Origin: Bartonella sp. B1099
GTDB lineage: Bacteria; Pseudomonadota; Alphaproteobacteria; Rhizobiales; Rhizobiaceae
Direction: 5' to 3'
Length of the DNA stretch: 64,000 nucleotides
NCBI RefSeq assembly: GCF_944801835.1
Contig: NZ_CALYLN010000001.1
Location: forward strand, 280,001-344,000
The position numbers and the translations under genes were made by a program. Positions 33,637 to 60,033 of this stretch are shown here, one piece after another. The notes under the pieces are model-generated. The model did not search any database and was not told the origin of the DNA. It was given only the letters and a program-made list of their open reading frames with translations. Position 1 is the stretch's first letter. Each line of letters begins with the position of its first letter.

Positions 33637-34109
33637 GTTTTATCAAACTTGTCCATCCAGCCCTAAAATATTTTTTCTCTCGTCATCCCTCTTCATCTAA
33701 GCCCTCTGCTCCATTTACAGACTCCTTGCCCCCAAACCTCTCATCCCATTCCACGCCATAACAAAAAGCCCAAATAACACATCAATTCTCCGCTTTCTTT
33801 TACAGATCCACGTTTTTACGCGTTACCATCTTTACAGAAAAATCCTTCAAACCAACACCCCACACTACTTTAGTCAACACTGATCTATTAACAATCGGGC
33901 TTCTTATGTCGCAAAATATCCCCTACGAACTTCAGATCATCACCCTTCAAACGGATAGAACTTCATAAAGCACGCCTTATCCTGAATATTCCTGCTCTCT
34001 TCACCACACCTCAGAACACCACTCTTTTATGAGTGTGCAGCATAGCCAATGTTTTAATTTTTCTTGCTAATCTTTTGAAATTACTTTATCACTTAAAAGA
34101 TATTTTGAT

Positions 34110-34310
34110 CGTCCACGCAACGGTCAATAAGGGAACTAAAAGCCCTAAACCCTAGCGTAAAAATGAGCCCACTGTGTGGGTATCCCGGAATTCCGGGAGT
34201 TTTTGCTATGTCCAGGTGCCAAAAGCACTAAAAGCAAAAAAGCTGACTAGGGTTCAGTACTTTTAGACTCCCGGAATACTCATGCGAGGGCGCTCGCAAC
34301 CGGAGGGGGC
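34110..34310 (+). ncRNA. Brt-family leader RNA, copy A
   Basis: About 200-nt structured element directly before an XRE regulator gene, as described for Brt RNAs of B. henselae (194-203 nt). Promoter-like TTGAAA (34075-34080), 17 nt, AGATAT (34098-34103). Pairings seen: CCCACTGTGTGGG hairpin (34168-34180); long stem ATTCCGGGAG (34190-34199) with CTCCCGGAAT (34268-34277); inner TTTTGC/GCAAAA; terminal GCGAG/CTCGC hairpin (34284-34297) next to the ribosome site of the regulator. RNA ends are inferred from the promoter and from published lengths. Confidence 0.75.
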
Positions 34311-34315
34311 TTGAA

Positions 34316-34678
34316 GTGCAAACCAAAAATTCATATTTTAATGATATTTCTATTGGCAAAAGAATTCGTCACAGAAGAATTTCAATGAGGCTTTCTCAAA
34401 AGGAATTAGGAAGCCATTTAGGTGTCAGTTTCCAACAAATCCAAAAATACGAAAAAGGTTTCAATCGTGTAAGCGCAGGGCGGTTACAGGAAATTGCCAA
34501 CCTACTGAAGGTCCCCATTACCTTTTTTTATGCGGATATTTCAAAAGAAGACATTCCAGAAAATCATTCCCACTACGACCAAGAAACCTATAGCGAAAAG
34601 GAACAGGCCCTTGTAAAAAATTTTAGAGAGCTCCACCCTAAAAAACAAAAAGCAATTTGGTGGTTAATTTCCGATTAG
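34316..34678 (+). CDS. XRE-family regulator, Trp type (copy A)
   Basis: 120 aa helix-turn-helix protein of the Cro/CI type. The HTH spans about residues 15-70 (IGKRIRHRRISMRLSQKELG, then VSFQQIQKYEKGFNRVSAG). A C-terminal helix with KNFRELHPKKQKAIWWLISD follows. The start is GTG at 34316 with GGAGGGGG upstream. It follows a Brt leader RNA; in B. henselae such Trp proteins are poorly transcribed unless the Brt RNA is read through, and Trp1/Brt1 control badA and biofilm. Nearly identical to copy B (differences include Tyr/His at residue 7 and Gln/His in EKEQALV). Confidence 0.9.
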   Translation: MQTKNSYFNDISIGKRIRHRRISMRLSQKELGSHLGVSFQQIQKYEKGFNRVSAGRLQEIANLLKVPITFFYADISKEDIPENHSHYDQETYSEKEQALVKNFRELHPKKQKAIWWLISD

Positions 34679-35025
34679 ATAAAACGCCCACAAAACCTCA
34701 ATCCTTTGCTTCATTTTTACAGATCCACGTTTTTACGCGTTACCATCTTTACAGAAAAAGCCTCCAAACCAACACCCCATACTACTTTAGTCAACACTGG
34801 TCTATTAACAATCGAGCTTCTTATGGAGCAAATATCCCCTACGGACTTCAGATCATCACCCTTCAAACGAATAATCCTTCATAAAGCACACCTTATCCCG
34901 AATATTTCTGCTCTCTTCACCACACCTCAAAACAACACTCCTTTACGAGTGTGCAGCATAGCCAATGTTTTAATTTTTCTTGCTAATCTCCTGAAATTAC
35001 TTTATCACTCAAAAGGTGCTTTGAT

Positions 35026-35228
35026 CGTCCACGCAGCGATCAATAGGGAGTTGAAGCCTGAAAAGCCTAATACATGAATTTGTCCCGCTTTGCGGGTATC
35101 CCGGAATTCCGGGAGCTTTTGCTATGTCCAAGTGTGTCTTACGCACTAAAAGCAAAAGGCTGATTAGGCTCAGTACTTTCAACCTCCCGGAATACTCATG
35201 CGAGGGCGCTCGCAACCGGAGGGGAACT
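35026..35228 (+). ncRNA. Brt-family leader RNA, copy B
   Basis: Same architecture as copy A: CCCGCTTTGCGGG hairpin, long stem between ATTCCGGGAG (about 35106-35115) and CTCCCGGAAT, and GCGAG/CTCGC hairpin at 35200-35213. The apical hairpin is changed (GTGTGTCTTACGCAC) with pairing kept. Its promoter boxes are altered compared with the other copies (CTGAAA and AGGTGC instead of TTGAAA and AGATAT), so expression may be lower. Confidence 0.7.
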
Positions 35229-35232
35229 TGAA

Positions 35233-35595
35233 GTGCAAACCAAAAATTCACATTTTAATGATATTTCTATTGGCAAAAGAATTCGTCACAGAAGAATTTC
35301 AATGAGGCTTTCTCAAAAGGAATTAGGAAGCCACTTAGGAGTGAGTTTTCAACAAATCCAAAAATACGAAAAAGGTTTCAATCGTGTAAGCGCAGGGCGG
35401 TTACAGGAAATTGCCAACCTACTGAAGGTCCCCATTACCTTTTTTTATGCGGATATTTCAAAAGAAGACATTCCAGAAAATCATTCCCACTACGACCAAG
35501 AAACCTATAGCGAAAAGGAACACGCTCTTGTAAAAAATTTTAGAGAGCTCCACCCTAAAAAGCAGAAGGCAATTTGGTGGTTAATTTCCGATTAG
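35233..35595 (+). CDS. XRE-family regulator, Trp type (copy B)
   Basis: 120 aa, GTG start at 35233 with GGAGGGGAAC upstream. Almost identical to copy A at protein and DNA level, including the 3' flank, so the A and B cassettes are a recent ~900-bp tandem duplication. HTH and C-terminal WWLISD motif intact. Same predicted role as a DNA-binding regulator read through from a Brt RNA. Confidence 0.9.
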   Translation: MQTKNSHFNDISIGKRIRHRRISMRLSQKELGSHLGVSFQQIQKYEKGFNRVSAGRLQEIANLLKVPITFFYADISKEDIPENHSHYDQETYSEKEHALVKNFRELHPKKQKAIWWLISD

Positions 35596-36982
35596 ATAAA
35601 ACGCCCACAAACATTATTCGTCGCTCTCCCCCTGCACCTAAAGCTTTTGATATCGGATATCACCCGCCTCCAATAATGTACAGCAGCCTCCCAATGGAGA
35701 AGGACATCCCTCCACTTCAAACAACACCCCTCTTGCAATACCGCCCCTTGTTCAGCCCCCTTGACAGCATCGGATTCAACAGCAACAAGCAATAAAGCAA
35801 CAAAATCTTGGAAAAAGACCTTGAGCATCCACACCCCATTCTCTTCTCACCCACGTCTTCCCAATAGCTTTTATGGAGGGGCTCTTATCTGCTCTGGTTT
35901 AAAGATACAATTCCGATTGTGTCATTATGATACCTTTTTACATTAACCTTGTCAAGTTTTATATTGTTCTTTTAATATTTTGTGTCATTCTTTCTCATAA
36001 TCATCTCTCTCATGCAACCAGAATGCCCAAAACATAAAGCACAAAATAAACCATCATGATGTTGCTCATTCACGCGTTTTTGAAAAAATTTGAAAAAACA
36101 TGCCTTACTGCTTTCGCCATTTCACGACAGTGCACTGCAAAATAACGCTCCATACCTTGTGATCATAAAAACCAACCTTTCCCCCTTCACTCTCTCCTCC
36201 CTCTCTTATAGCAACCACGCCCCCTTCATCCCATTCTCTCCCATTTCGACACTCTCTCCTCCCTCTCTCTGCTTCCTCTTCTCTCCCATCAACGCATCCA
36301 TACGCCCCCCCTCTTCATCACAACGTGTTCCTCCATTGACAAACGCTTCCTCTTCGCCTTCCAATCCTCTCCACCCCATAACAAAAGCTTCACCCGCCCC
36401 AAAGCACACACAACGCATAAATCCACCCACGTCCTTGAACGTCCGCTTCACTTTCACAGATACACATTTTTACGCTTTTACAGCTTTACAGAAAGCAGCC
36501 AAATGAAACGTTCACCCAGCCCGCACACTGCTCTGTCAAGAATCCAACAATTTATAGCAGATTTCTCTGACCCCCCACTCAAGCAGAGCTGCACACCATA
36601 AGCGCCCCTAAAAACAACGGCGCTTTATGGCATAAGAGGATTATTGCCCCTCCTCTTCGCCCTCCAAATCCTCTCTCCCCTCTCCACCCCATAACAAAAG
36701 CTTCACCCGCCCCAAAGCACACACAACGCATAAATCCACCCACGTCCTTGAACGTTCACTTCACTTTCACAGATACACATTTTTACGCTTTTACAGAAAT
36801 AAGCCAAATGAAACGTTCACCCAGCCCGCACACTGCTCTGTCAAGAATCCAACAATTTATAGCAGATTTCTCTGCCCCCCCACTCAAGCAGAGCTGCACA
36901 CCGTAAGCGCCCCTAAAAACAACGGCGCTTTATGGCATAAGAGGATTATTGCCCCCTTCTATCCCATGGAATTTCCCCCCAC
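35596..36982. other. Non-coding region with duplicated composite repeats
   Basis: No gene. Pyrimidine-rich on the plus strand. About 300 bp is duplicated in tandem (about 36343-36645 and 36650-36950), each unit carrying the composite-repeat core and ending in a boundary element with CGGCGCTTTATGGCATAAGA. Long frames across it follow base skew and are not genes. Confidence 0.6.
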
Positions 36983-39562
36983 TTATGCTTCAGGCGAAAA
37001 ATCCAAGCGATCTCCTTGTTTTGTAACTGTCACCGCCGTCTCATCGTGAATTTCTCCAAACAAGATTTTTTCTGCGAGCGGATCTTGAATTTCCTTTTGG
37101 ATAATCCGTTTAAGGGGGCGTGCCCCATAAAGGGGGTCATAACCTTTATCGGCAAGGAACTGTCGGACTTCTGGTTTGATATGCAAGGTTATGTTGCGTT
37201 CATTGAGCAAATTTTGCAAATGTTGTATCTGAATATCAACAATCGCCTCCATATCTTTGCGTTGCAACCGCTGAAAGAGAATAATCTCATCGATACGGTT
37301 TAAAAACTCCGGACGGAAAGCGGCTTTGACAACATTCATCACATCGTCTTTTGCTTGATCAACCGTTTGCCCTTCCGGCAAAGCGGTTAAAAATTCAGCA
37401 CCAAGATTGGAAGTCATAATCAACAAAGTATTACGAAAATCGACTGTTCTTCCTTGACTATCGGTCAAGCGCCCTTCATCCAACACTTGCAGCAGCAGAT
37501 TAAAGATATCCGGATGCGCCTTTTCAATTTCATCAAAGAGAATAACTTGATAAGGTCTTCTTCGCACGGACTCCGTCAGTACGCCCCCTTCTTCATATCC
37601 GACATATCCGGGCGGCGCCCCAATGAGCCGCGCCCCAGCATGCTTTTCCATATATTCCGACATATCAATACGCAACATAGCATTGGGATCTTGAAAAAGA
37701 AACGCCGCCAAAGCTTTGGTGAGTTCTGTTTTTCCCACACCGGTAGGTCCCAAGAACATAAAGGAGCCGAGGGGACGATTAGGATCTTGCAACCCAGCCC
37801 GTGCCCTCCGGACAGCTCGCGCCACCGCTTGCACCGCTTCACCCTGTCCCACGACACGGGTAGCAATTTCATCTTCCATGCGCAAGAGCGCTTCGCGTTC
37901 TGCTTCCAACATCCGATCAACAGGAATACCGGTCCAGCGAGAAATGATCCGTGCGACATGTTCAGCGGTCACCGTTTCTTCAACGAGATGATTTTGTTGG
38001 TCATCATTTTCGGCTAAGGTCAATTGTTTTTCGAGTTCCGGAATAACACTATAAGCCAATTCCCCAGCGCGTTGGAATTGTCCATCCCGCTGTGCAATTG
38101 CCAAAGCATTGCGCGCTTCTTCGAGTTGTTTTTTCAAATCAGCCGCATGCCCTAATTTTTGTTTTTCAGCCTGCCAAGCCGTTGTCATCTCGGCGGACTG
38201 TTGTTCCAATATTTTGAGTTCTTCCTGCACATTTTTCAAACGTTCTTTTGCTGTAGGTTCAACATCTGTTTTCAAAGCCTCCCGTTCGATTTTCAACTGT
38301 AAAATGCGCCGATCGAGAGCATCTAATTCTTCGGGCTTTGAATCAACCTGCATACGCAAGCGTGCAGCGGCTTCATCGATCAGATCAATAGCTTTATCGG
38401 GCAAGAAACGATCAGTAATATAACGAGAAGAAAGTCGTGCAGCGGCAATCAAAGCACTATCTGCTAAACGCACTTTGTGGTGCTGTTCATATTTTTCTTT
38501 AATCCCACGCAAAATAGAAATCGTATCTTCCAAAGAGGGCTCAGGTACGAAGACCGGTTGAAAGCGGCGGGCAAGAGCTGCGTCTTTTTCGACATATTTT
38601 CGATATTCATCCAAAGTTGTAGCGCCCACACAATGGAGTTCTCCACGGGCAAGAGCCGGCTTTAACAAGTTGGAAGCATCCATCGGACCATCAGATTTTC
38701 CAGCCCCCACAAGGTTATGCAATTCATCAATAAAGAGAATAATTTGCCCATTTTCGGCTTGCACTTCCGCCAGAACGGCTTTAAGGCGTTCTTCAAATTC
38801 CCCGCGGTATTTTGCACCGGCAATAAGCGCACCCATATCCAACGCATAGAGTTGTTTATCGCGCAAAGTTTCTGGAACATCGCCATTGATAATGCGCAGC
38901 GCCAACCCTTCAACAATAGCGGTTTTTCCGACCCCTGGCTCTCCGATCAGCACAGGATTATTTTTCGTCCGCCGTGAGAGCACCTGAATGGTGCGTCGAA
39001 TTTCTTCTTCTCGCCCAATGACAGGGTCGAGTTTTCCTTCGCGTGCATCTTTTGTGAGATCACGTGCATATTTTTGCAAGGCATCATATTGACCTTCGGC
39101 ATGGGGGCTTGTGGCTGTTTTTCCTTTGCGCAGATCATTAATTGCCTGATTAAGCGCCTGCGGGGTCAAGCCCGCCTTTGTGAGAATATCGGCTGTTTTT
39201 GCAGATTTTTCCATCAACAGCGCTTGCAACATGCGCTCGACAGTAACAAATTGATCACCGGCTTTTTGTGCGAGCTCCTCTGCGGCTGCGAAGACTTTTG
39301 CCACCGGCTGCGAGAGATAGAGTTGTCCATTTCCCCCTTGCACTTTTGGCAAAACTTCGAGTGCTTCTTTAAGTGCCTTTTGAATAAGCTTCAGATCTCC
39401 CCCTGCTTTTTGGATCAGCGATGCAGCCAATCCTTGTGGATCATCTAACAACACTTTCAAGAAATGCTCTGGCATAAACTGCTGATGATCAGAAGCCAGC
39501 GCGTTATTTTGTGCTGATTGTAAAAAGCCCTGCACGCGTTCGCTATATTTTTCCAAGTGCAT
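36983..39562 (-). CDS. clpB: ATP-dependent chaperone ClpB
   Basis: 859 aa disaggregase that works with DnaK to rescue aggregated proteins. Order: Clp N-domain ([20 protein letters not shown]), NBD1 with Walker A GEPGVGKT and Walker B LFIDELHN, the long coiled-coil middle domain that marks ClpB, NBD2 with GPTGVGKT and [11 protein letters not shown], and the C-domain ([19 protein letters not shown]). Full family length. The ATG at 39562 is preferred to one 11 codons upstream because AGAAAGGA lies before it and MHLEKYSER aligns with family starts. A heat-shock-like promoter is found upstream. Single gene, flanked by repeat modules on both sides. Confidence 0.97.
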
Positions 39563-39732
39563 TTTTTTCCTTTCTTGAGGCAACTCTTTAGGCATTCTTT
39601 TTTAGTCATCGCCCCAGCCCTTTTGTTTTCTCAAAACACTAAACCAAAAGCTCTCCCCCGCATGTCATAAAGACCGCCCCACCACACGAACACCAGAAAC
39701 GTTGAAGCATGAAGAACTGTCGTGTTAAAATG

Positions 39733-39762
39733 AATATGGGTTATGATCTAAACGAGTGCAAG
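39733..39762 (-). promoter_or_regulatory. Possible RpoH (sigma-32) promoter of clpB
   Basis: On the minus strand CTTGCAC, 15 nt, CCCATATT. This is close to the sigma-32 consensus (CTTGAAA, 13-15 nt, CCCCATNT) and lies about 170 bp before the clpB start. ClpB is a standard RpoH target. Confidence 0.45.
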
Positions 39763-39839
39763 AGCAAAACATGAAAGAAAAAATAAAGACAAGAAACGCG
39801 TGCAAAAAAGCATCATAAAACCAGAAGATAAAAGGTTTT

Positions 39840-41009
39840 GCAAAACAGCGCCCCCAAAAAAATGACCTCATTCCTTGCGACCAATGACACATCCCCATCC
39901 CCTAAAAACATTCAGGAGAGCGCCCTCAAGAAAAACATGAAAGCCCCCCTAGAAAAATTGACTTTACCCCGCCATGCGCGCGCCTCTTCCTCCAACACAC
40001 ATCCAACATAAATCTTCCTCCCCCCTTCTATCAACGCCCCAACATCCTTAGCGCACCTTTTCCCTCTCAAGCTTATCTCCCTACTGACAGCCTCTCTCCT
40101 CCAGTCACGCCCCTTCCATCCCACTCTCTCCTTCCTCTCTCTGTTTCCTCTTCTCTCCGCTCAACGCACCAATACGCGCGTCCCTTCTCCATCTCAACTC
40201 ACCCTCCATTAATAAGATCTTCAGCTCCAAATCCTCTCTCCCCATTCCACACTATGGCAAAAAACCACTCCCCACCCCAAAGCTTGCACAAAGCATAAAA
40301 CCCTCCACGTCCTTGAACCTCCCCTTTCTTTTTCACAGATCCACATTTTTACGCTTTCCCATTTTCACTCAAAAGCAGCCAAAGAACTTCAAAACCACCC
40401 CACTCCCCCTTCAAAAAGCAAATTCCCCCCAAAGGACAAAATGCTCCCCCACTCTATAAACAACAATCCCAATAAACAACAATCCAACCTCTTGCCCCAC
40501 GCCTCCACAGATCAAACGCCCTTCTCCATCTCAACTCACCCTCCATTAATAAGATCTTCAGCTCCAAATCCTCTCTCCCCATTCCACACTATGGCAAAAA
40601 ACCACTCCCCACCCCAAAGCTTGCACAAAGCATAAAACCCTCCACGTCCTTGAACCTCCCCTTTCTTTTTCACAGATCCACATTTTTACGCTTTCCCATT
40701 TTCACTCAAAAGCAGCCAACCAAAGGCTCACGCTCCTGCGCTCCTCAGTACACAGCCACTTTGTAAACAACACAACAGTTTAGCAACGCTCCTATCTTGA
40801 GATCACCGCCCTTGGGGAGCGGTGCGACAAAAGGCGCGACAAGCAAGCTCCACAATCCACACACACAAAAAAAGCGCCTTAAATGTATAAAGCGATAGAG
40901 CTGATATCACCACAATTCAAAGATCAGTGTTTTACGCCATGATAGGATCATGAACGCACTGTCTTTTTTAAAAAAAGAAACGGCATGGAGATCTCAAATC
41001 GCTCAATGA
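39840..41009. other. Non-coding region with duplicated composite repeats
   Basis: No gene. Two near-identical ~200-bp copies (about 40182-40381 and 40517-40719) carry CTCCATTAATAAGATCTTCA, CCATTCCACACTATGGCAAA and the composite-repeat core. A boundary element follows at 40915. Confidence 0.65.
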
Positions 41010-42239
41010 TCATTCTCGACTGTCATGTGAAGGGGGTGTTAACGTTTTACTTTTTTTAATTTTTATAACACCAGTCATTCCAGTGGCAATAATAAAGGCA
41101 GACATCGCTAAAAAAGAGCCCATTAATCCGACGAGTGCAAAAAGTCCAGCAATAAGGCCAGACACGGCTTCCGCAGAGTTTGCTAGGGTTGAAAAGGTTC
41201 CAAAACTCTTTCCAAAATCTTCACGATGAGAATATAATTGAAGCGCTGAGACTAAACTAATATCCACAAATGCACCCGTAAAGCCTAAAACAAAGGCGAA
41301 TACGAGAAGGAGTTTTAAAGAAAGGATTGAAATTAAAGGCATAACAAATAAAACGCCCCCATAAAGAAGCCAAAAGATCATAAGCTTTAATGATGTAACA
41401 TTGACGATCATTTTATGATAGAACAAACTGCCGACAATCGTTCCCACAGCCATGAGAGAAAAAAGTGAACTCACAAAGCTTTCCTCTGCCCCTATAGAGA
41501 GAACAAAAGCTGGAATTAAAAATCTTAAAATTGCCCCCGTAAAGAGAATAGCAAACGCCGATCCAATGAGCGTAATCAATAAGTTATTATTTTCAGTAGA
41601 AATAGTTTTAAGATAAGAAGCTGTTTCCCGATAAATTTTTATAAAATTGAATGATTGAGTCTCACTTGAATTTAAACTCATGAGATTCAATAACAGGATA
41701 ATAGAGATAAAGTAGGTAAAAAAATCAAAAATGAGGACGGTGGATTTATTGGCTAAAAACAGCAGGAGGGAACAAACTAAAGGACCAATGACGGCGGCAA
41801 TTTCATTGATAATTTGTGCAAGACTATTTGCCTTTGTCAGATCCTTGATTGCAAACATTCTAGGAATAGCAGCTTGAAAGCTTGGTTGAAAAATACTTCT
41901 TCCGATTGTTGTACCTATTGCTGCCAAAATAAGCACAATAATATGGTCAGTCCCTGTTATAGTGGTTATGAACACGAAGAATGCAGCGAATAATCTCACC
42001 ACTTCACTGCAGATCATATTTTTCTTCAAAGAAAAATTATCTGCGAACCAACCGCCTATAGGTCCAAAAAAGAGAAAAGGGATAAATCGAAAAAAATATA
42101 CAAGACCGATCAAAAAGGCATTATCTGTGACTTCTAAAACAAGTAAAACGAAAACGACTTCATAAGCATAATCACCAACTTTAGAAATAAACAGAGAAGA
42201 AAAAAGAGCGAAGGGACTCTTTTTTAAAAATAACTTCAT
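41010..42239 (-). CDS. MFS exporter (MFS_3/EntS-like)
   Basis: 409 aa, about 12 membrane segments, no signal peptide. The start LFISKVGDYAYEVVFVLLVL and GPIGGWFADNFSLKKN (loop 2-3 motif) with RSIFQPSFQAAIPRMF match the MFS_3 group of macrolide or siderophore exporters. The start at 42239 is preferred over a longer frame because the extra 19 residues are not part of the family and GGGTGGG lies just upstream. Substrate unknown. It is a single gene between repeat modules, opposite in strand to the surrounding regulator cassettes. Confidence 0.85.
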   Translation of the reverse strand: MKLFLKKSPFALFSSLFISKVGDYAYEVVFVLLVLEVTDNAFLIGLVYFFRFIPFLFFGPIGGWFADNFSLKKNMICSEVVRLFAAFFVFITTITGTDHIIVLILAAIGTTIGRSIFQPSFQAAIPRMFAIKDLTKANSLAQIINEIAAVIGPLVCSLLLFLANKSTVLIFDFFTYFISIILLLNLMSLNSSETQSFNFIKIYRETASYLKTISTENNNLLITLIGSAFAILFTGAILRFLIPAFVLSIGAEESFVSSLFSLMAVGTIVGSLFYHKMIVNVTSLKLMIFWLLYGGVLFVMPLISILSLKLLLVFAFVLGFTGAFVDISLVSALQLYSHREDFGKSFGTFSTLANSAEAVSGLIAGLFALVGLMGSFLAMSAFIIATGMTGVIKIKKSKTLTPPSHDSRE

Positions 42240-42503
42240 ATCACCCACCCGATATTCAACTTTTTTACAGTTAAAATTCCCCGCCCTTTCATACAATTGA
42301 TGATATGAACTTCAAAGGAACGCCCAATTCGTTGTTAAAATATCCCCGCTAAGTATTCCATACCCTAATATCGACCTCAAAGAACATTTTTTCACAAAAA
42401 AGAGGATAATTCTTGAACTCCAAAAAATATTTTACCTTTTCAATATCTTCATTTTTCTTGCCAATCTTTTGAAATTGCCTTATGAATGAATACTGTAATT
42501 TTG

Positions 42504-42706
42504 GTCGCTTACGCAACGATCAATAGGGATTTGAAACCCCCGAAAACTTGACACATAAATTTATCCCGCTTTGCGGGTATCCCGGGATTCCGGGAGATTT
42601 TGCACTGTCCAGGTGCTTACCAGCACTAAAAGCAAAAAGCTGACTCGGATTCAGTACTTTTAGCCTCCCGGAATACCAATGCGAGGGCGCTCGCAACTGG
42701 AGGGGG
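42504..42706 (+). ncRNA. Brt-family leader RNA, copy C
   Basis: Promoter-like TTGAAA (42469-42474), 17 nt, ACTGTA (42492-42497). Hairpin CCCGCTTTGCGGG, long stem ATTCCGGGAG with CTCCCGGAAT, inner TTTTGC/GCAAAA, GTGC/GCAC apical hairpin, and terminal GCGAG/CTCGC (42681-42694) just before GGAGGGGG of the next gene. A CCCCC run near the 5' end (42537-42541) could pair with that ribosome site. Confidence 0.75.
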
Positions 42707-42712
42707 CTTAAA

Positions 42713-43102
42713 GTGCAGACCAAAAACCCACAGTTTCAAACCAAAAACCCACATTTTATTGATATTTCAATCGGCAAAAGGATTCGTCAAAGACGCATTG
42801 CCATGGGGCTTACTCAAAAGGCATTAGGAAGCTTTTTAGGGGTGAGTTTCCAACAAATTCAAAAATATGAAAAAGGTTTAAACCGTGTAAGCGCAAGCTG
42901 TTTACTAGAAATCACCAATATACTGCAAGTTCCAATAAGCTTTTTTTATGCGGATCTTTTAACAAAGGATATTGTTACAAAAGAAAATCTCTCAAACCCT
43001 GATCAATACATCTATAGCGAAAAAGAATTTTCCCTTTTAAAAAACTTTAGAGAGCTTCCCCGCAAAAAACAGCAGGCGATTTGGTATCTAATCTCTGATT
43101 AG
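42713..43102 (+). CDS. XRE-family regulator, Trp type (copy C)
   Basis: 129 aa, GTG start. The N-terminus carries a 9-residue duplication (QTKNPQFQTKNPHF). HTH at about 24-80 (IGKRIRQRRIAMGLTQKALG, VSFQQIQKYEKGLNRVSAS), C-terminal RKKQQAIWYLISD. It belongs to a second subgroup with D and E, differing from A/B in MGLTQKALG and the TKDIVTKENLSNPDQYIYSE region. Downstream of Brt copy C. Confidence 0.9.
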   Translation: MQTKNPQFQTKNPHFIDISIGKRIRQRRIAMGLTQKALGSFLGVSFQQIQKYEKGLNRVSASCLLEITNILQVPISFFYADLLTKDIVTKENLSNPDQYIYSEKEFSLLKNFRELPRKKQQAIWYLISD

Positions 43103-43292
43103 ACCAAAGCGCACAGCAACATTCTTCGCGCATCTCCCTCCCCCAGCTTAAAATTCCCCATCCCCCAAAAAGAGCAGTGTTTTAGGGCATGATAGGATAA
43201 ATTTATCATAGAAGAGAAAAATGCGCTAAGCTTAAAAAGTAAGCCCCATTATTCCTATAACAATGACACCATCACGATCTTAACTGACAAGG

Positions 43293-43691
43293 TTAAGAAA
43301 GGAGTCTTGTTGAGAGCCCATTTTTCGTTAGCAGGTCTATTGCTAATTTATCAAATGAAACAAAGGTTTCACCACCTAGCCAATGTCCCTCATAAGATAT
43401 AATTCCATCAGCAAAATCTCCACCAGCCTCAAGCATAGCAAGCCCTGCTTCAACAGCTGGTCGATTCATGACGACATTACGCGTTGCAAGAAGATCACGA
43501 ACCATCAAAGCAATCTCTTCTTTTGATAATTTTGCCCCGCGGCGGAGTATCCAAATCAGTTCGCAAAGACAAGGCAGAGAAATAGCGATGAGAGAAGCTT
43601 CTCTTAAGATCTTACTTGCTATTTCACCTTGCTTTTTATCATCTTGTAAAACAGCGCGGGCTAGAACATTTGTATCGACAGAAATCTTCAC
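43293..43691 (-). CDS. vapC: PIN-domain toxin, VapC type
   Basis: 132 aa ribonuclease toxin of a type II toxin-antitoxin pair. PIN-domain acidic residues are in place: Asp6 (SVDTNVLAR), Glu44 (LCELIWIL), Asp95 (FADGIISY) and Asp114 (VSFDK). The start is the GTG overlapping the antitoxin stop (GTGA); a TTG five codons upstream is less likely. VapC enzymes usually cleave tRNA or rRNA and are inhibited by VapB. Translational coupling to vapB is typical. Confidence 0.88.
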   Translation of the reverse strand: MKISVDTNVLARAVLQDDKKQGEIASKILREASLIAISLPCLCELIWILRRGAKLSKEEIALMVRDLLATRNVVMNRPAVEAGLAMLEAGGDFADGIISYEGHWLGGETFVSFDKLAIDLLTKNGLSTRLLS

Positions 43692-43939
43692 TTTTTCCCC
43701 GCCCAACCAGAGGCAGCAATTTCGTTCATTTCTTCCACAGTCAGTGTTTTTTTAACTTTTCCAGCAAATCGTCCGATAAAGCTATCAATTGTGCTTGTAG
43801 GCTGTGCTGCTTTTATACGAAGTTCACCACCTGGTAACTTATCAAAGTTGATGCGCTCCCCTGGTTTAACACCAAGGTGCTGGAGTAAATCCCGCTTCAG
43901 CGTCACTTGTCCTTTTGCTGTAACAGTTAGTGAAGGCAT
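43688..43939 (-). CDS. vapB: AbrB-type antitoxin, VapB
   Basis: 83 aa. The N-terminal swapped-hairpin AbrB/SpoVT fold (LTVTAKGQVTLKRDLLQHLG-VKPGERINF) binds DNA for autoregulation. The C-terminal tail (IDSFIGRFAGK, TVEEMNEIAASGW) is the toxin-binding part. AGAGGA precedes the ATG, and TTGAAT and TATACT boxes lie about 40-60 bp upstream. The 4-bp overlap with vapC and the gene order (antitoxin first) are standard. The pair lies between two near-identical Brt-Trp repeats. Confidence 0.88.
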   Translation of the reverse strand: MPSLTVTAKGQVTLKRDLLQHLGVKPGERINFDKLPGGELRIKAAQPTSTIDSFIGRFAGKVKKTLTVEEMNEIAASGWAGKK

Positions 43940-44506
43940 AGAAAAATCCTCTTAATATAGATATCGTTATTGAGTATATATAAAAAATAATGAAAAATTC
44001 AATTACTTTTTAAAAATTGCCAAAGCGCTATAGGGCAGATCCTGAACATGAGGAATTGTAAGATATATTCGTTTTCATACCGGCAATACCTGATTATCCC
44101 CGAAAAATAGGAGACCTTGAACTCCTCACAGCGTTAAACAACGGTGCTTTATAGCATAGAAGAATGTGTAGAATTGAAGATAATCATGTTTCATCTATCC
44201 ACTGACACAAATGCGATCAATAGGAAAAGCTTTTAAAGCAGAAAAACACGCACCATTGAAAAAAAATGATGAGGCCGTAGGTTTTACGCATCCTCCACCT
44301 TTTGCTAAAAACAGCAAAGGAACGCCCAATTCGTTGTCAAAATATCCCCGCTAAGTATTCCATACCCTAATATCGACCTCAAAGAACATTTTTTCACAAA
44401 AAAGAGGATAATTCTTGAGCTTCAAAAAATATTTTCACCTTCCCAATATCTTCATTTTTCTTGCCAATCTTTTGAAATTGCCTTATGAATGAATACTGTA
44501 ATTTTG

Positions 44507-44707
44507 GTCGCTTACGCAACGATCAATAGGGATTTGAAAACCCCAAAACTTGACACATAAATTTATCCCGCTTTGCGGGTATCCCGGGTTTCCGGGAGTT
44601 TTTGCTATGTCCAGGTGCTTACCAGCACTAAAAGCAAAAGGCTGGCTGAGCTCAGTGCTTTCAAACTCCCGGAATACCAATGCGAGGGCGCTCGCAACTG
44701 GAGGGGG
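44507..44707 (+). ncRNA. Brt-family leader RNA, copy D
   Basis: Promoter-like TTGAAA (44472-44477) and ACTGTA (44495-44500). Same hairpins as copy C. The long stem reads GTTTCCGGGAG with CTCCCGGAAT, so one pair near its base is weakened. Confidence 0.72.
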
Positions 44708-44713
44708 CTTAAA

Positions 44714-45082
44714 GTGCAGACCAAAAACCCACATTTTATTGATATTTCAATCGGCAAAAGAATTCGTCAAAGACGCATTGCCATGGGGCTTACTCAAAAG
44801 GCTTTAGGAAGCTTTTTAGGGATGAGTTTCCAACAAATTCAAAAATATGAAAAAGGTTTAAACCGTGTAAGCGCAAGCTGTTTACTAGAAATCACCAATA
44901 TACTGCAAGTTCCAATAAGCTTTTTTTATGCGGATCTTTTAACAAAGGATATTGTTACAAAAGAAAATCTCTCAAACCCTGATCAATACATCTATAGCGA
45001 AAAAGAATTTTCCCTTTTAAAAAACTTTAGAGAGCTTCCCCGCAAAAAACAACAGGCGATTTGGTGTCTAATCTCTGATTAG
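44714..45082 (+). CDS. XRE-family regulator, Trp type (copy D)
   Basis: 122 aa from the GTG at 44714, with GGAGGGGG upstream. A longer frame reaches back into the Brt leader and should not be used as the start. HTH intact (RQRRIAMGLTQKALG, MSFQQIQKYEKGLNRVSAS); C-terminus IWCLISD. Differs from copy C mainly by loss of the short N-terminal duplication, Val to Met before SFQQ, and Tyr to Cys near the end. Confidence 0.9.
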   Translation: MQTKNPHFIDISIGKRIRQRRIAMGLTQKALGSFLGMSFQQIQKYEKGLNRVSASCLLEITNILQVPISFFYADLLTKDIVTKENLSNPDQYIYSEKEFSLLKNFRELPRKKQQAIWCLISD

Positions 45083-45404
45083 ACCAAAGCGCCCAGCAAC
45101 ATTCTTCGCGCATATCCCTCCCCCCCAGCTTAAGATTTCCCCATGCTTAATATCACCAAATCCCAAATGATGATATTTTACAACATTGTAGGATATAACC
45201 AGACCTCAAACGACGCTGTTTTACGGTCTCATAGAGGAACATCCCTCCTAAGAATAACCAACATCAAAGTCTAGAGAAGACCTTTCACTATTCTCAGCAG
45301 AATTTTATCTGATTGGACAGGCCTATAGTTTCACTTCTTAAGGCGATTTTTCTGCCAACATTTCTTTATTATCTCCTTCTTTTAGACAAACCGTCAAAGG
45401 GATT

Positions 45405-45794
45405 TCATCTCTTATAAGTACGGATATAATAACGTGTTACTCCAGCCTCATCATAATAGACAGTAGACAGGATACCTATATTTGTTGGCATTATTTGATA
45501 AGTCAAAACGACACCATTTTGCTGTTTATTTGGTTGATCTGTATAGATCACGCGATATCCATTGCGCTGCAACAGATCGATAAATAAAGGTGCAAAATTG
45601 TCTTCTCTTTTACTTTTTTTCACAATAAGTGTTGTTTGAGCTGGCAATAAAGATTGTTTAAGATTGTGAACAAAATCATGAGCAATTAATTTTATATCAG
45701 AGTTGGTAATATTTCGATCAACATAATTTGCATGATTCATAGATGCGCAACCAGCCACCAACACAAGTGGTAACGGTAATAAATATCTTGACAC
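45405..45794 (-). CDS. Lipoprotein resembling conjugal transfer protein TrbH
   Basis: 129 aa with signal peptide and lipobox VAGC at Cys16. The mature part follows the TrbH pattern: a helix (LIAHDFVHNLKQSLLPAQTT), a strand with LIVKKSKREDNFA, a helix plus FIDLLQRNGYRVIYTD, and a C-terminal strand pair ending GVTRYYIRTYKR. TrbH is part of plasmid-type T4SS mating channels. No other trb gene is nearby, so if the match is right it is an orphan remnant or has been reused. Similarity is by pattern only. Confidence 0.5.
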   Translation of the reverse strand: MSRYLLPLPLVLVAGCASMNHANYVDRNITNSDIKLIAHDFVHNLKQSLLPAQTTLIVKKSKREDNFAPLFIDLLQRNGYRVIYTDQPNKQQNGVVLTYQIMPTNIGILSTVYYDEAGVTRYYIRTYKR

Positions 45795-46306
45795 CTTAAC
45801 CCCCTCTCAATTGTATTTTCTCTTGAGAAGCTCCTACACCAAAAGTTAAGAGCACCTTTGCTAAAAAGCAATGTTAACAATGTATTGGTTTGTAATCAAG
45901 GAATAGTACATCAATTTTTCACGCGTCAAAGAAACGGTGGCTTGATAGCCCTCAAAACTTATCCTTAACCTATAGTGATACTTCAGATACAAAATATATA
46001 TGTTAAACGTCAACAAAACACATGGAAGGCATAGCGTAGACATATCCTATATGGACACTTACTTTCATGCTATTCTGCATAAATACAGCCTCCACAACGC
46101 ATTAACCCTCCACGTCCTTGAACTTTCCTTCTTTTCTTACGATTTTACGATTTAACGTTTTTACGCTTTATCATCTTTACTAAAAAGCAACCCAATGAAA
46201 CTTTCCCCTATTCCCCTTCAAAAAGCAAATTCCCCCAAAGAACAAACCCTCCCCCCCAAGCCTTGCTCCAACACGCAAAACTCACACAACCTCCACCATA
46301 GCCCCT
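45795..46306. other. Non-coding region
   Basis: No gene. Contains one diverged copy of the composite-repeat core (about 46085-46190, with CCACGTCCTTGAAC and TTTTTACGCTTTATCATCTT). Confidence 0.5.
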
Positions 46307-46636
46307 TTATTCTTCTTCATCGCTAACCTGTGGAGGTGGAGGAAGGATATAAGCCCCCGAAAGCCAGCGATTGAGATCAATGGCGCGGCATCGGGGTGAA
46401 CAAAAAGGATACGCAGACTTTTGAGACATTTGACCACAAATAGGACAAGGATGCGGAGGACGAGTCTCTTTTGGTAAATTGGGCTCTTGTTGCTCAGAGC
46501 GTTCTTTTTGGCTATGAAATTTCTTTTGGCTTTGAAACGTCTGCGCCTCTTTCATTAAATTTTCTTCTGTTTTTCTTTTTTCATTTTGCCTTGTTTTATT
46601 TTTGCTTTGCACTTTTTGCTGCCTTTCACCCTGCAT
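46307..46636 (-). CDS. yacG: DNA gyrase inhibitor YacG (zinc-binding)
   Basis: 109 aa. The C-terminal 50 residues are the YacG zinc finger: CPICGQ, then FCSPRCRAIDLNRWLSGAYI, with four Cys ligands. YacG binds GyrB and limits gyrase activity. The protein carries a Lys/Gln/Glu-rich N-terminal extension of about 55 residues not found in most homologues, which are around 60-70 aa. The start at 46636 is supported by AAGGTAA. Last gene of infA-maf-yacG, the Rhizobiales order, with 21 bp to the maf stop. Confidence 0.85.
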   Translation of the reverse strand: MQGERQQKVQSKNKTRQNEKRKTEENLMKEAQTFQSQKKFHSQKERSEQQEPNLPKETRPPHPCPICGQMSQKSAYPFCSPRCRAIDLNRWLSGAYILPPPPQVSDEEE

Positions 46637-46657
46637 AGCTCTTACCTTCAAATTTTT

Positions 46658-47413
46658 CTACGGCATCTCTTCAGTCCACTGAGCGTAAAGTGGATAGTGA
46701 TAAGCAGTCAAGAGATCGGCAGTTTCAGCCAAAGGCAATCCCACGACATTCGAATAAGAGCCTGCGATATAGACCACAAAAGCCCCTGCTTTTCCTTGGA
46801 TAGCATAGCCACCCGCTTTCCCTTGCCATTCTCCAGAAGCAAGGTAAGCCTTCATCATAAAAGAGGTTAAGCGTCTAAAACGGACACGCGTTTCAACCAA
46901 TTTTACGGTTATTTTTCCTTGTTCATTCAAGGCACAAATGGCGCCATAGACCTTGTGCGCCCTTCCAGAAAGGAAACGCAAACATTCATAAGCCTCATCC
47001 TCCCCTTCTGGTTTGGGAAGAATGGTGCGCCCCACCGCCACCACCGTATCAGCCGCCAAGATAATCGTTTTCTGCCCAGATAATTTTTTTGGAACGTTTT
47101 GCAATTTTTCTTGAGGGTTTTGATTTTCTTGGGATTTTTGAGCGTACCAGCGCAAGCTCTCTTGCGCTTTGAGTGCTTTTTCTTTTGCCAAACGTTTGGC
47201 AAGGTTTGCGGGATGTTCTTTTAATTTTGGTGTTTCATCAATATCGCTTGCATAAACCTGTTGGGGCTCAATGCCCATTTGCGCTAAGAGCATTAAACGC
47301 CGTGGCGAAGCGGAGGCAAGCACCAAATGAATTTCTTCTCCCAAATGCATTTTCCCCCCAAGAGTTTGTGCCCAACGTTTTTTCCCCCACTCTTTTATAA
47401 TTTTCATTTCCAC
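46658..47413 (-). CDS. maf: Maf-like nucleotide pyrophosphatase
   Basis: 251 aa in the longest frame. Maf proteins hydrolyse non-canonical or modified nucleoside triphosphates. Landmarks: LVLASASPRRLMLL, IDETPKLKEHPANLAKRLAK, the catalytic ADTVV, LSGRAHKVYGAI, GGYAIQGKAGAF and SYSNVVGLPL. An insertion of about 25 residues (QKSQENQNPQEKLQNVPKKL) sits before the ADTVV strand and makes the protein longer than usual. The family start is nearer LVLASASP, so the ATG at 47350 (MHLGEEIHL) is a good alternative. Co-oriented with infA and yacG. Confidence 0.9.
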   Translation of the reverse strand: MEMKIIKEWGKKRWAQTLGGKMHLGEEIHLVLASASPRRLMLLAQMGIEPQQVYASDIDETPKLKEHPANLAKRLAKEKALKAQESLRWYAQKSQENQNPQEKLQNVPKKLSGQKTIILAADTVVAVGRTILPKPEGEDEAYECLRFLSGRAHKVYGAICALNEQGKITVKLVETRVRFRRLTSFMMKAYLASGEWQGKAGGYAIQGKAGAFVVYIAGSYSNVVGLPLAETADLLTAYHYPLYAQWTEEMP

Positions 47414-47590
47414 CCCTTTTACAATCGGCTTATTTTTTCCCCCATATTAAGCGCCATGGGTCTCCTTATTCTTTTTGTGCACTGCCCTTAATTCTTTTTG
47501 TATACTTTCCGCACTGATTTTACACTTTTTCAAGGTCATTTTAAACATTGCTCTTTTCTGACGCAGAGAAAGTCCCTTCAAGGACTGTTA

Positions 47591-47617
47591 AAAATCACAG
47601 AAAGAATATTGTGACTT
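47591..47617 (-). terminator. Weak intrinsic terminator after infA
   Basis: Minus-strand GTCACA/TGTGAT stem around a 10-nt loop followed by TTTTT (47591-47616). It lies about 30 bp after the infA stop and before maf, so infA may be partly separate from maf-yacG. Confidence 0.4.
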
Positions 47618-47646
47618 TTACAAAAAAGCGCCCCCCCTCCATAAGG

Positions 47647-47865
47647 CTACTTATAGCGGTATGTAATGCGTCCTTTTGTCAAATCATAAGGGGTCATTTC
47701 GACCATGATTTTATCACCGGCTAACACGCGAATACGATTTTTTCGCATTCTTCCAGCGGTATGTGCAATAATTTCATGATCATTTTCGAGTTTTACACGA
47801 AACATCGCATTTGGTAAGAGTTCGGTAACGATACCCGAAAATTCTAAAACTTCTTCTTTTGACAT
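47647..47865 (-). CDS. infA: Translation initiation factor IF-1
   Basis: 72 aa S1-like OB-fold protein: [69 protein letters not shown]. This is the complete family sequence. It occupies the ribosomal A site during initiation. ATG at 47865 with AAAGGAAAT upstream. Confidence 0.97.
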
Positions 47866-48556
47866 AAACAATAATTTCCTTTACAATGCACATATTTTGT
47901 TAAGCTGTGCGTTATTTTCCAGCGTTCATACCCTATTTTCTCAAATTTGTGAATAAAAATTCCACAAAAAGGGGAAGGTTTTTCCAGTTTTCTCTTTTCT
48001 GTTCTCAAAAAACCGCACCTTCCATTTTGAGCATTCCAATTTCACTCCCTCAAATTTTACCTGCCAATTTTTTTCAATTTTTAGAATGATCTTGGTTTCA
48101 GCATGACAAGAAATGACACTCAATCCCCCCCAATTTTCTCCCTCCTATTCCACACCATGCCACAAGCCCAAACCACATCCCAAAAGCTTGCACAATACAT
48201 CAATCCCCACGGCTTAAACGTCCCTCATCTTTTTACAGATACACGTTTTTACATTTTACCATTTTTAAAGAAATCTGTAGACTAAACTGCCGATAAAAAG
48301 ACCGATTGACTTGCCCCCACAAGACAAAACTTCCCTTCCCGCACCACTGCGAAAACAAAACTTTACAAACGACAATTCAGCCTCTTGCCCCGCGCGCTAT
48401 CCCAAATCGCCTCCTCAAAAACATGGAACAGACAGGACCAAACACGCCTCATTCCCCATGCTGATCACTTCATGTGGTCCAGATCACTCCCTCTCAGCGA
48501 GAATACTTCATAAAATACGCCTTGCTCTATCCCGAATGACTCTCTTCACCACTCCG
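47866..48556. other. Non-coding region with composite repeat
   Basis: No gene. 48121-48445 is a near-identical copy of 49811-50130 and contains the composite-repeat core (48228-48275). The region ends in a boundary element. Confidence 0.6.
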
Positions 48557-48684
48557 TAAAGAGTGTGTTTTTAGGGCATAAGAGTATAATTCTTGAGCTC
48601 CAAAAAATATTTTCACCTTCCCAATATTTTCATTTTTCTTGCCAATTTTTTGAAATTCCTTTATTAGTTAAAAGATATTTTGAT

Positions 48685-48886
48685 TGTCTACGCACCGATC
48701 AAGAGGGAACTAAAAGCCCTAAACCCTAGCGTATAATTGAACCCATTCTTGTGGGTATCCCGGGATTCTGGGAGTTTTTGCACTGTCCAGGTGCTTACCA
48801 GCACTAAAAGCAAAAAAACTGACTCGGATTCAGTACTTGTTACTCCCGGAATACCAATGCGAGGGCGCTCGCAACTGGAGAGGGGC
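48685..48886 (+). ncRNA. Brt-family leader RNA, copy E
   Basis: Promoter-like TTGAAA (48650-48655), 17 nt, AGATAT (48673-48678). Long stem partners GATTCTGGGAG and CTCCCGGAAT, apical GTGCTTACCAGCAC hairpin and terminal GCGAG/CTCGC are kept. The basal hairpin is changed (CCCATTCTTGTGGG). It appears intact although the regulator behind it is broken. Confidence 0.7.
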
Positions 48887-48891
48887 TTAAC

Positions 48892-49283
48892 ATGCAAACC
48901 AGAAATTCACAGTTTCAAACCAAAAACCCGCATTTTATTGATGTTTCTGATCAAGCAAAAGAATTCATCAAAGACGCATTGCCATAGGGCTTTCTCAAAA
49001 GGCATTAGGAAGCTTTTTAGGGGTGAGTTTCCAACAAATTCAAAAATATGAAAAAGGTTTAAACCGTGTAAGCGCAAAATGTTTATTGGAAATCGCTCAA
49101 AAACTAGCAGTTCCGATGAGCTTTTTTTATGCGGATATTGTGACAGCAGATATTATCTCAAAAGACCATCACGCACACGATGATCAATATACCTATAGTG
49201 CAAAAGAACACGCTCTTTTAAAAAATTTCAGAGAGCTTCTCCGCAAAAAACAGCAGGCAATTTTTGGGCTCATTTCTGATTAG
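48892..49283 (+). pseudogene. Frameshifted Trp-type XRE regulator (copy E)
   Basis: ATG at 48892 begins MQTRNSQFQTKNPHFIDV as in copy C. Two extra bases near 48945-48955 (GATGTTTCTGATCAAGCAAA in place of GATATTTCAATCGGCAAA) then shift the frame and give a stop after about 31 codons. The remaining HTH and C-terminus read openly from about 48957 in the shifted frame (IRRRIAIGLSQKALGSFLG-like, then FFYADIVTADIISKDHHA). A GTG at 49023 could start a truncated protein lacking most of the HTH. Probably recent loss, since no other damage is seen. Confidence 0.85.
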
Positions 49284-59864: not shown

Positions 59865-60033
59865 GAGGGTGTTCTGCGCTTCTCGACAGGAAATAACGTA
59901 TTCCTGAGACCTTAGTGATCTCCAAGGGAGCTGTCCCTGATGAAGCCCGTGGGCTTTTTCATATGGCGCCCACCTATTTGTATAGGTTCCCGGGATCAAC
60001 TTTTTCCATCGGCTGTTGTGGATCACCCTTTTT
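59865..60033 (+). ncRNA. ssrS: 6S RNA
   Basis: The RNA folds as a long hairpin with closing GGGTG (59868-59872) and CACCC (60024-60028) followed by T6. Characteristic 6S blocks: GTTCTGCGCTTCTCGACAGG at the 5' side, CCTGAGACCTTAGTGATCTC, AAGGGAGCTGTCCC, GAAGCCCGTGGGCTT and GGCGCCCACC, with AACTTTTTCCATCGGC on the 3' side. The location upstream of the 5-formyltetrahydrofolate cyclo-ligase gene is conserved in proteobacteria. 6S RNA binds the housekeeping RNA polymerase holoenzyme and mimics an open promoter. Confidence 0.85.

Follow-up and report, generated by a model that had tools for sequence, protein, structure and literature searches.

The C4 RNA of phages P1/P7 consists of two upstream sites (a1/b1), two antisense regions complementary to them (a'/b') and second copies of the sites (a2/b2), which are located at the ribosome site of the gene that follows; translation of this gene is repressed and transcription is then terminated in a Rho-dependent manner. 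We analysed the Brt leader RNAs of Bartonella, together with the trp genes for XRE-type regulators behind them, in a stretch of 64,000 nucleotides (nt), here called the window, which corresponds to positions 280001-344000 of contig 1 of a 2.29-Mb Bartonella genome. The closest described system is Brt1-9/Trp1-9 of B. henselae, for which abundant Brt and poorly transcribed trp are reported (PMC5387305). Tu et al. report Brts in Bartonella only and propose a riboswitch plus an action in trans (PMC5387305), and deletion of the 3' stem-loop was found to raise trp1, with a reporter rising as heme falls (PMC8070961). A dual role as leader RNA in cis and in trans has also been proposed for SreA/SreB of Listeria, which are named in PMC5387305; these are described there as riboswitches and are compared here by description only. 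sRNA-Xcc1, a small RNA (sRNA) mapped as a transcript of 88 nt (PMC2996969), occurs on integrons and, in Xanthomonas, before symE (PMC12444791), and in a 2025 Xylella paper, a single table lists loci of sRNA-Xcc1 and of C4 close to one another, treated as separate families (PMC12189769).

An earlier note on this DNA had described five leader copies in the window, at 34110, 35026, 42504, 44507 and 48685 (copies A to E), and had recognised them as members of the Brt/Trp system. All five copies were found at these positions, on the plus strand, and the assignment is supported by leaders of about 200 nt (here about 194-203 nt), an XRE gene 10-18 nt downstream, the genus and the multicopy occurrence, all as in B. 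henselae, with which the window also shares the highly conserved 3' end and one broken trp gene, trp8 there and trp E here (PMC5387305). An intact XRE regulator follows copies A to D, but not copy E. The copy-specific pseudoknot shared by Brt and its relatives suggests a family of antisense switches before regulator genes, and we consider it somewhat more probable than even, at roughly 0.55, that the Brts, each located upstream of a Trp (XRE) gene, represent the Bartonella branch of a class of C4-like antisense leaders.

Copy-specific helices and the predicted pseudoknot

Brt and Trp relatives were taken from 41 genomes and 45 loci of named records (30 Bartonella), complemented by region fetches. 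An nhmmer profile based on sequence only, with the five window copies as seed, resulted in 212 hits in 136 partly overlapping loci; with 12 short hits and 5 hits cut by sequence ends removed, 195 were left, of which 151 are distinct, 147 of these being parsed and 4 remaining unparsed. Two long-range helices connect the halves of the leader. In H1, the loop of a 5'-half hairpin (GGG...CCC) pairs with the segment immediately upstream of CTCCCGG; in H2, the following 7-8 nt of the 5' half pair with a hairpin loop closed by GCTGA...TCAG. A pairing score of at least 14 in cis is reached by H1 in 109 of the 147 distinct copies (mean 25 and maximum 33 in 40 shuffles) and by H2 in 110 (mean 20.5, maximum 26). 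As predicted helices, H1 and H2 are hypervariable yet complementary copy by copy in about three quarters of these Brts, with 39 distinct sequences for H1 and 46 for H2, some differing only by an end pair. In a MAFFT alignment of 110 distinct copies, 365 cells are changed on both sides of a pair compared to 134.5 (standard deviation (sd) 16.9) after shuffling (0/500), whereby the shuffles ignore relatedness and gene conversion between copies could inflate the counts. Gene conversion as the sole cause is unlikely given dozens of distinct compensated helices, and it is this natural supply of compensated helices that makes the mechanism testable by strand swaps. Double changes are found at 27 pairs in total, of which 14 belong to H1 (8 of its 9 pairs) and H2 (6 of 7).

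H1 and H2 carry the strongest covariation and were not named in the earlier note. The promoter-like boxes and the ATTCCGGGAG/CTCCCGGAAT stem it had listed do recur among the copies. It had also observed that pairing is often kept when hairpin arms change, which is correct for the 5' hairpin (double changes at 4 of 7 pairs in the 110 copies) and incorrect for the GCGAG hairpin (0 of 5). The covariation it had proposed to look for is strong in H1, H2 and the 5' hairpin and missing in the very hairpin it had stressed. The two subgroups of copies, which had been suggested to reflect separate specificities, are mosaics, the leader halves of the window copies looking exchanged between families; specificity, if any, would sit in H1/H2, which differ copy by copy.

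Both helices cross the stem P (CCGGGAG/CTCCCGG), and the Brt fold is therefore a pseudoknot. The gap between the 3' strands of H1 and P is 0 nt in 77 and 1 nt in 25 of the 102 matched copies, the close abutment required for the two helices to stack coaxially in a pseudoknot. The 3' half is one continuous antisense strand, composed of the 3' strands of H2, H1 and P (H2-3', H1-3', P-3'), with the partner strands H2-5', H1-5' and P-5' upstream. In single-fold energies, calculated with programs that cannot fold pseudoknots, the H1/H2 fold lies below the P fold by 2.6 kcal/mol on average (sd 4.7) and in 74 of 101 copies; the energies speak neither for nor against a switch between P and H1/H2. Selection for distinct codes within a genome was rejected: for uncollapsed loci (130 of 138 hits parsed) the code count is 1/457 within compared to 22/2864 between genomes (84/500 permutations, not significant), and the count on collapsed sequences (0/470 within-genome pairs, 4/300 permutations) is biased by the merging of identical copies. 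Diversifying selection is not supported by the diversity of H1/H2, which is of the same order as that of the linkers and the Hp4 loop.

Within the window, copies A and B keep H1 and H2, i.e. antisense regions complementary to upstream sites resembling a1/b1 of C4; copy D has this complementarity for H1 only and copies C and E for neither helix. Across the 147 copies, trp is open (at least 95 amino acids (aa)) in 84 of the 102 with both helices, the others being broken (15) or running off contig ends (3), and in 17 of the 45 without both helices (Fisher p 3e-8, relatedness ignored). Helix pairing is lost mostly where trp is also broken. In tandem arrangements (L010, L083, L092, L110, L115, L118, L134), one Brt is located about 0.3-0.4 kb upstream of the second, too close for an intervening trp, and most of these upstream copies have lost H1/H2 pairing.

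Relatives before traM and in other alphaproteobacteria

R1, a covariance model of the Brt 3' part, matches in 40 of 61 Bartonella genomes with 1-34 matches each. Three Bartonella genomes without multicopy Brts have a single weak match each (E-value about 1e-10; L152, L153, L154), a divergent RNA upstream of an XRE gene (of 104 aa in both loci with listed open reading frames). It follows the same plan with other helix sequences, and two of these RNAs differ in H2 by a one-sided change from T.G to T-A. Applied to 397 genomes of the order, R1 found two more loci outside the genus (E about 1e-5; L158, L159); a third match at 5.9e-4 looks like chance. Blastn with L158 and L159 as queries returned 370 and 224 plasmid records, mostly of Agrobacterium/Rhizobium and most of them predicted to be conjugative, compared to only 5 plasmids, all from Bartonella, with a Brt query. 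We inspected 22 plasmid regions, hand-picked from 82 listed plasmid hits (85 rows less three near-duplicates). By annotation, the RNA directly precedes traM, encoding the anti-activator of TraR, in 10 of them and a helix-turn-helix (HTH) gene in 2 (R. leguminosarum; Bartonella kosoyi pTLV-1); in the other 10 a hypothetical or DUF gene is found behind the RNA, or no gene is annotated directly behind it. Pfam confirms TraM (2.8e-33), HTH_3 and RovC_DNA-bd in one region each. Among the open-access papers in the top matches listed, we found no description of a structured RNA before traM.

The helices recur in these relatives. H1 and H2 are complementary in all 24 scored RNAs outside the multicopy Brts (H2 mean 16.9 vs a shuffle mean of 11.3 and maximum of 12.8; H1 17.7 vs 14.1 and 15.7); the scoring left out the plasmid RNA L175, for which the anchor failed and which is complementary by eye, and L153, one of the three near-identical divergent Bartonella RNAs. 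An alignment of 23 of the non-multicopy RNAs contains 112 double-change cells vs 46.5 after shuffling (0/500), with 10-11 double changes at three pairs of P. P and H1/H2 are therefore both supported, although they cross.

R2, a model with H1/H2 as stems in whose construction no multicopy Brts were used, finds window copies D (2.5e-6), A (2.9e-6) and B (1.7e-4) and, weakly, E (0.078); copy C is not among its matches. Covariance models thereby show homology running both ways, the Brt model finding the relatives and the non-Brt model finding four of the five window copies. At an E-value of up to 0.001, R2 matches in 45 of 385 alphaproteobacterial genomes (44 of 384 without our own), representing 39 of 277 genera, in a survey that scored at most 7 candidates per genome and gives copy numbers as lower bounds. 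A set of loci found by a model of this type (29 of 30 used) shows pairing of H1 in 26 of 29 and of H2 in 29 of 29, which is partly circular as the model includes H1/H2; in the same 29 loci, the 3' strands do not pair with the following 75 nt above shuffles. The published genus-specific status of Brt does not hold at the level of architecture. In B. henselae, the Brts are presented with single-sequence folds and as genus-specific, and the portions of PMC5387305 accessible to us contain neither the pseudoknot nor the covariation nor relatives outside the genus. Among the matches listed from open-access papers, none describes a Brt pseudoknot or such relatives.

The sRNA-Xcc1 family RF02221 matches the relatives, often at R2 positions (22 of 31 R2-positive genomes at an E-value of up to 0.1), in one of these genomes above the cut-off. 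Its 87-position model aligns only to the half of the relatives from P-5' to P-3', being without the 5' half that holds H1-5' and H2-5'. At locus L231, the 3' half matches RF02221 and the 5' half the C4 family RF03163 (c4-a1b1) at 5.4e-6, below the cut-off. The small alphaproteobacterial genome with this locus (G743; L231-L233) contains 37 RF02221 matches (E up to 0.1), an expansion comparable to that of Brt.

The genome under study also contains a second multicopy leader-RNA family of the RF02221 type, some copies of which precede phage antirepressor-type genes. There are 18 matches on contigs C1, C2 and C4, none being a Brt and none lying in the window, and two of the loci pass the Rfam cut-off. 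Four proteins downstream of such loci were scanned, yielding Rha twice, AntA once and one protein without a family, i.e. three of four of the antirepressor type as in C4. From the 18 matches 13 loci were fetched (L218-L230) and 12 were used, L225 being left out as it is like L224; two of the 12 have no downstream gene and L222 has no matching 5' half. The 3' strands score above shuffles against the 5' half (H2 17.25 v 12.44; H1 21.58 v 16.39) and against the ribosome site (H2 15.25 v 11.02; H1 17.88 v 13.62; 0/200 shuffles each), and in 10 of the 12 loci the sequences of H1-5' and H2-5' occur a second time, at the ribosome site further downstream. The antisense strand of these loci can therefore choose its own 5' half or the ribosome site, and the copies of both 5' strands resemble a2/b2 of C4. 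In contrast to C4, the Brt and traM leaders precede regulators, not ant, and are without clearly covarying ribosome-site copies. At the Brt ribosome site, a second copy is not found for H1 and is weak for H2, for which reason we do not file Brt as C4. Direct identity with an Rfam family was excluded for Brt: none of the five leaders matched a family at cut-off, and RF02221 has no match in the window at its 53-bit cut-off.

Proposed antisense control of trp and competing explanations

The comparisons show the architecture and the homology; for Brt we infer antisense repression of trp with Rho-dependent termination. According to this model, the antisense strand would block translation of trp, most likely by pairing of its CTCCCGG with the ribosome site CCGGNGGGG, and the untranslated trp mRNA would be shortened by Rho and trimmed back to the GCGAG hairpin, resulting in an abundant Brt of about 200 nt and little trp. 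The copy-specific H1/H2 would keep the many co-expressed copies from folding onto each other, and the terminal hairpin may serve the protection of the trimmed 3' end or the binding of a protein. Abundant Brt, low trp and the absence of a U-tract would all be explained by a translation block combined with Rho termination. The Brt ribosome site is partly complementary to CTCCCGG and nearly constant, which puts this pairing beyond a covariation test. The drop of the TraM protein in an A. tumefaciens hfq mutant (PMC4201532) is counted as support.

Several results weigh against this assignment. The Brt ribosome site shows no covariation with H1-3' (10.29 v 10.23; 101 of 102 matched copies) and a weak one with H2-3' (10.91 v 10.45, sd 0.18; 101 copies), so the second-copy logic holds for other members of the class and not for Brt; a switch of H1-3' to the ribosome site was accordingly rejected, its cis score equalling the shuffle. 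For 25 RNAs (plasmid-type, order and divergent Bartonella), the score of H2-3' against the ribosome site is no different from the shuffles (77/200), H1-3' gives 6/200 and P-3' 0/200, the latter barely exceeding the shuffle maximum, possibly as an effect of two sub-lineages. The split into two sub-lineages also carries most of the double changes of P in the wider class, which therefore represent few independent events. In calculations that exclude pseudoknots, enforcing either P or H1/H2 makes little difference to the predicted ribosome-site accessibility (0.34-0.44). No Rfam model of C4 or sRNA-Xcc1 has a match in copies A and B up to an E-value of 2, and RF01695, i.e. C4 itself, is matched in none of the scanned loci. 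Copies C and D have an open trp without a matched H2. The Rho and antisense steps are carried over from work on P1/P7 C4. Finally, antisense Brt1 expression gave no longer transcript in the experiments reported by Tu et al. (PMC5387305).

The published alternative regards Brt as a ligand-sensing riboswitch, in which the 3' stem-loop terminates transcription unless a signal, proposed to be heme, refolds the RNA. The reported effects of stem-loop deletion and falling heme (PMC8070961) are in line with this, the small energy difference between the P and H1/H2 folds would suit refolding, and the conserved unpaired stretches TATGTCC and TAAAAG could bind something. We nevertheless regard it as unlikely. 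Only 0-3 T are found in the 8 nt after the terminal hairpin in the 142 of 147 copies where it was located, and because no U-tract follows, this GC hairpin was ruled out as an intrinsic terminator; moreover, the helices vary freely among paralogues of one genome and the class precedes unrelated genes (traM and XRE; Rha and AntA in RF02221-type loci), unlike a single-pathway metabolite sensor. The same hairpin could instead act as DNA, GCGAG-N4-CTCGC being a Trp operator at which bound Trp halts RNA polymerase between Brt and trp. As expected of a protein site, the palindrome hardly varies, GCGAGGGCGCTCGC being exact in 123 of the 147 distinct Brts, and shows no covariation; an FQQIQKYEKG-like stretch recurs among the Trp prefixes viewed. 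All 16 exact sites of the whole genome are located in Brt leaders, one of them belonging to a truncated Brt of contig 4, even though binding of Trp1 near badA has been reported (PMC8070961). Allowing up to 2 mismatches adds no site except the motif's own opposite strand, and with the palindrome confined to Brts in this genome its role as a general Trp operator was ruled out. That trp is poorly transcribed under published conditions (PMC5387305) and that the plasmid traM relatives have a GGGGGCG-containing hairpin with no XRE gene directly downstream further render a roadblock improbable.

A slightly smaller probability still is assigned to Brt acting mainly in trans as an sRNA on distant mRNAs such as badA, with a link to trp inherited by duplication. 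In favour of this we count that sRNA-Xcc1 is reportedly called trans-acting in the title of Chen 2011. Furthermore, antisense Brt1 raised badA and Brt1 is among the most abundant RNAs (PMC5387305). Against it, the predicted Brt1-badA pairing was weak (PMC5387305), and an action on the adjacent gene is favoured by H1/H2 and trp decaying together and by the short distance to the gene in most plasmid regions.

Taking the antisense leader reading of Brt further, Brt, the Ti-type traM leader, sRNA-Xcc1 and P1/P7 C4 might constitute one superfamily of pseudoknotted antisense leaders with H1/H2 as addresses, by which mobile elements would silence antirepressors, quorum-sensing anti-activators and XRE regulators, and which Bartonella would have multiplied to up to 34 model matches per genome as mutually insulated switches; we hold this extension tentatively, at a little below even odds. 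If true, it would explain how an abundant Brt ends without a terminator, join Brt, sRNA-Xcc1 and C4, which are separate families in the literature compared, and place a structured RNA in front of TraM, the brake on Ti-plasmid conjugation.

Leader parts, trp genes and neighbouring features of the window

All leaders and trp genes are encoded on the plus strand. Copy A is preceded by promoter-like boxes, read from the sequence and recurring in aligned copies (TTGCTA 34064-34069; TATCAC 34087-34092; 17-nt spacer). The 5' hairpin Hp1 (TTGATCG/CGGTCAA; 34105-34127), in which the double changes described above occur, is followed by Hp2 (GGG...CCC; 34131-34145), whose loop contains the H1 5' strand CTAAAAG (34136-34142), and by the H2 5' strand AACCCTAG (34148-34155). 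The P 5' strand ATTCCGGGAG (34190-34199) belongs to a stem with double changes in the wider class and is subject to competition by a local hairpin with CCCGG (34184-34188). In the 3' half, the H2 3' strand CTAGGGTT (34247-34254), complementary to 34148-34155, lies in the GCTGA..TCAG loop, the H1 3' strand CTTTTAG (34260-34266) one nt upstream of the P 3' strand CTCCCGGAAT (34268-34277), followed by the terminal hairpin GCGAGGGCGCTCGC (34284-34297) and the ribosome site CCGGAGGGGG (34300-34309), which by its sequence is partly complementary to CTCCCGG. Within the window, the 14-mer GCGAGGGCGCTCGC is confined to five sites, with starts at 34284, 35200, 42681, 44682 and 48859. trp A (34316-34678) is an open XRE regulator gene of 120 aa (HTH_3 1.2e-11).

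Copy B (35021-35213) has P at 35106-35115 with 35184-35193, H1 as GTTGAAG (35050-35056) with TTTCAAC (35177-35183), H2 as AGCCTAAT (35064-35071) with ATTAGGCT (35163-35170) and the terminal hairpin at 35200-35213; the open XRE gene trp B behind it (35233-35595; 120 aa) is 98% identical to trp A. In copy C (42499-42694; P 42587-42596 with 42665-42674; terminal hairpin 42681-42694), neither H1 nor H2 is complementary, and the open XRE gene trp C (42713-43102) encodes 129 aa (HTH_3 7.3e-11). Copy D (44501-44695; terminal hairpin 44682-44695), with H1 complementary and H2 not, precedes the XRE gene trp D (44714-45082), open for 122 aa from GTG. Copy E (48677-48872; terminal hairpin 48859-48872), with H1 and H2 not complementary, is followed by trp E (48892-49283), a frameshifted remnant in which 31 aa are open from ATG and the later part is open in another frame, its protein match containing 2 stops.

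Copy E and trp E are flanked by a long near-identical direct repeat recognised by eye (about 48130-48440 and 49820-50130). Between copies C and D, the minus strand carries a PIN-domain gene (PF01850) and a small partner gene (43293-43939), which look like a toxin-antitoxin pair, and at 45405-45794, also on the minus strand, a gene resembles the conjugal transfer protein TrbH, under the NCBIfam cut-off. A 6S RNA (RF00013, 73.2 bits) at 59868-60028 is the sole Rfam match at cut-off in the window.

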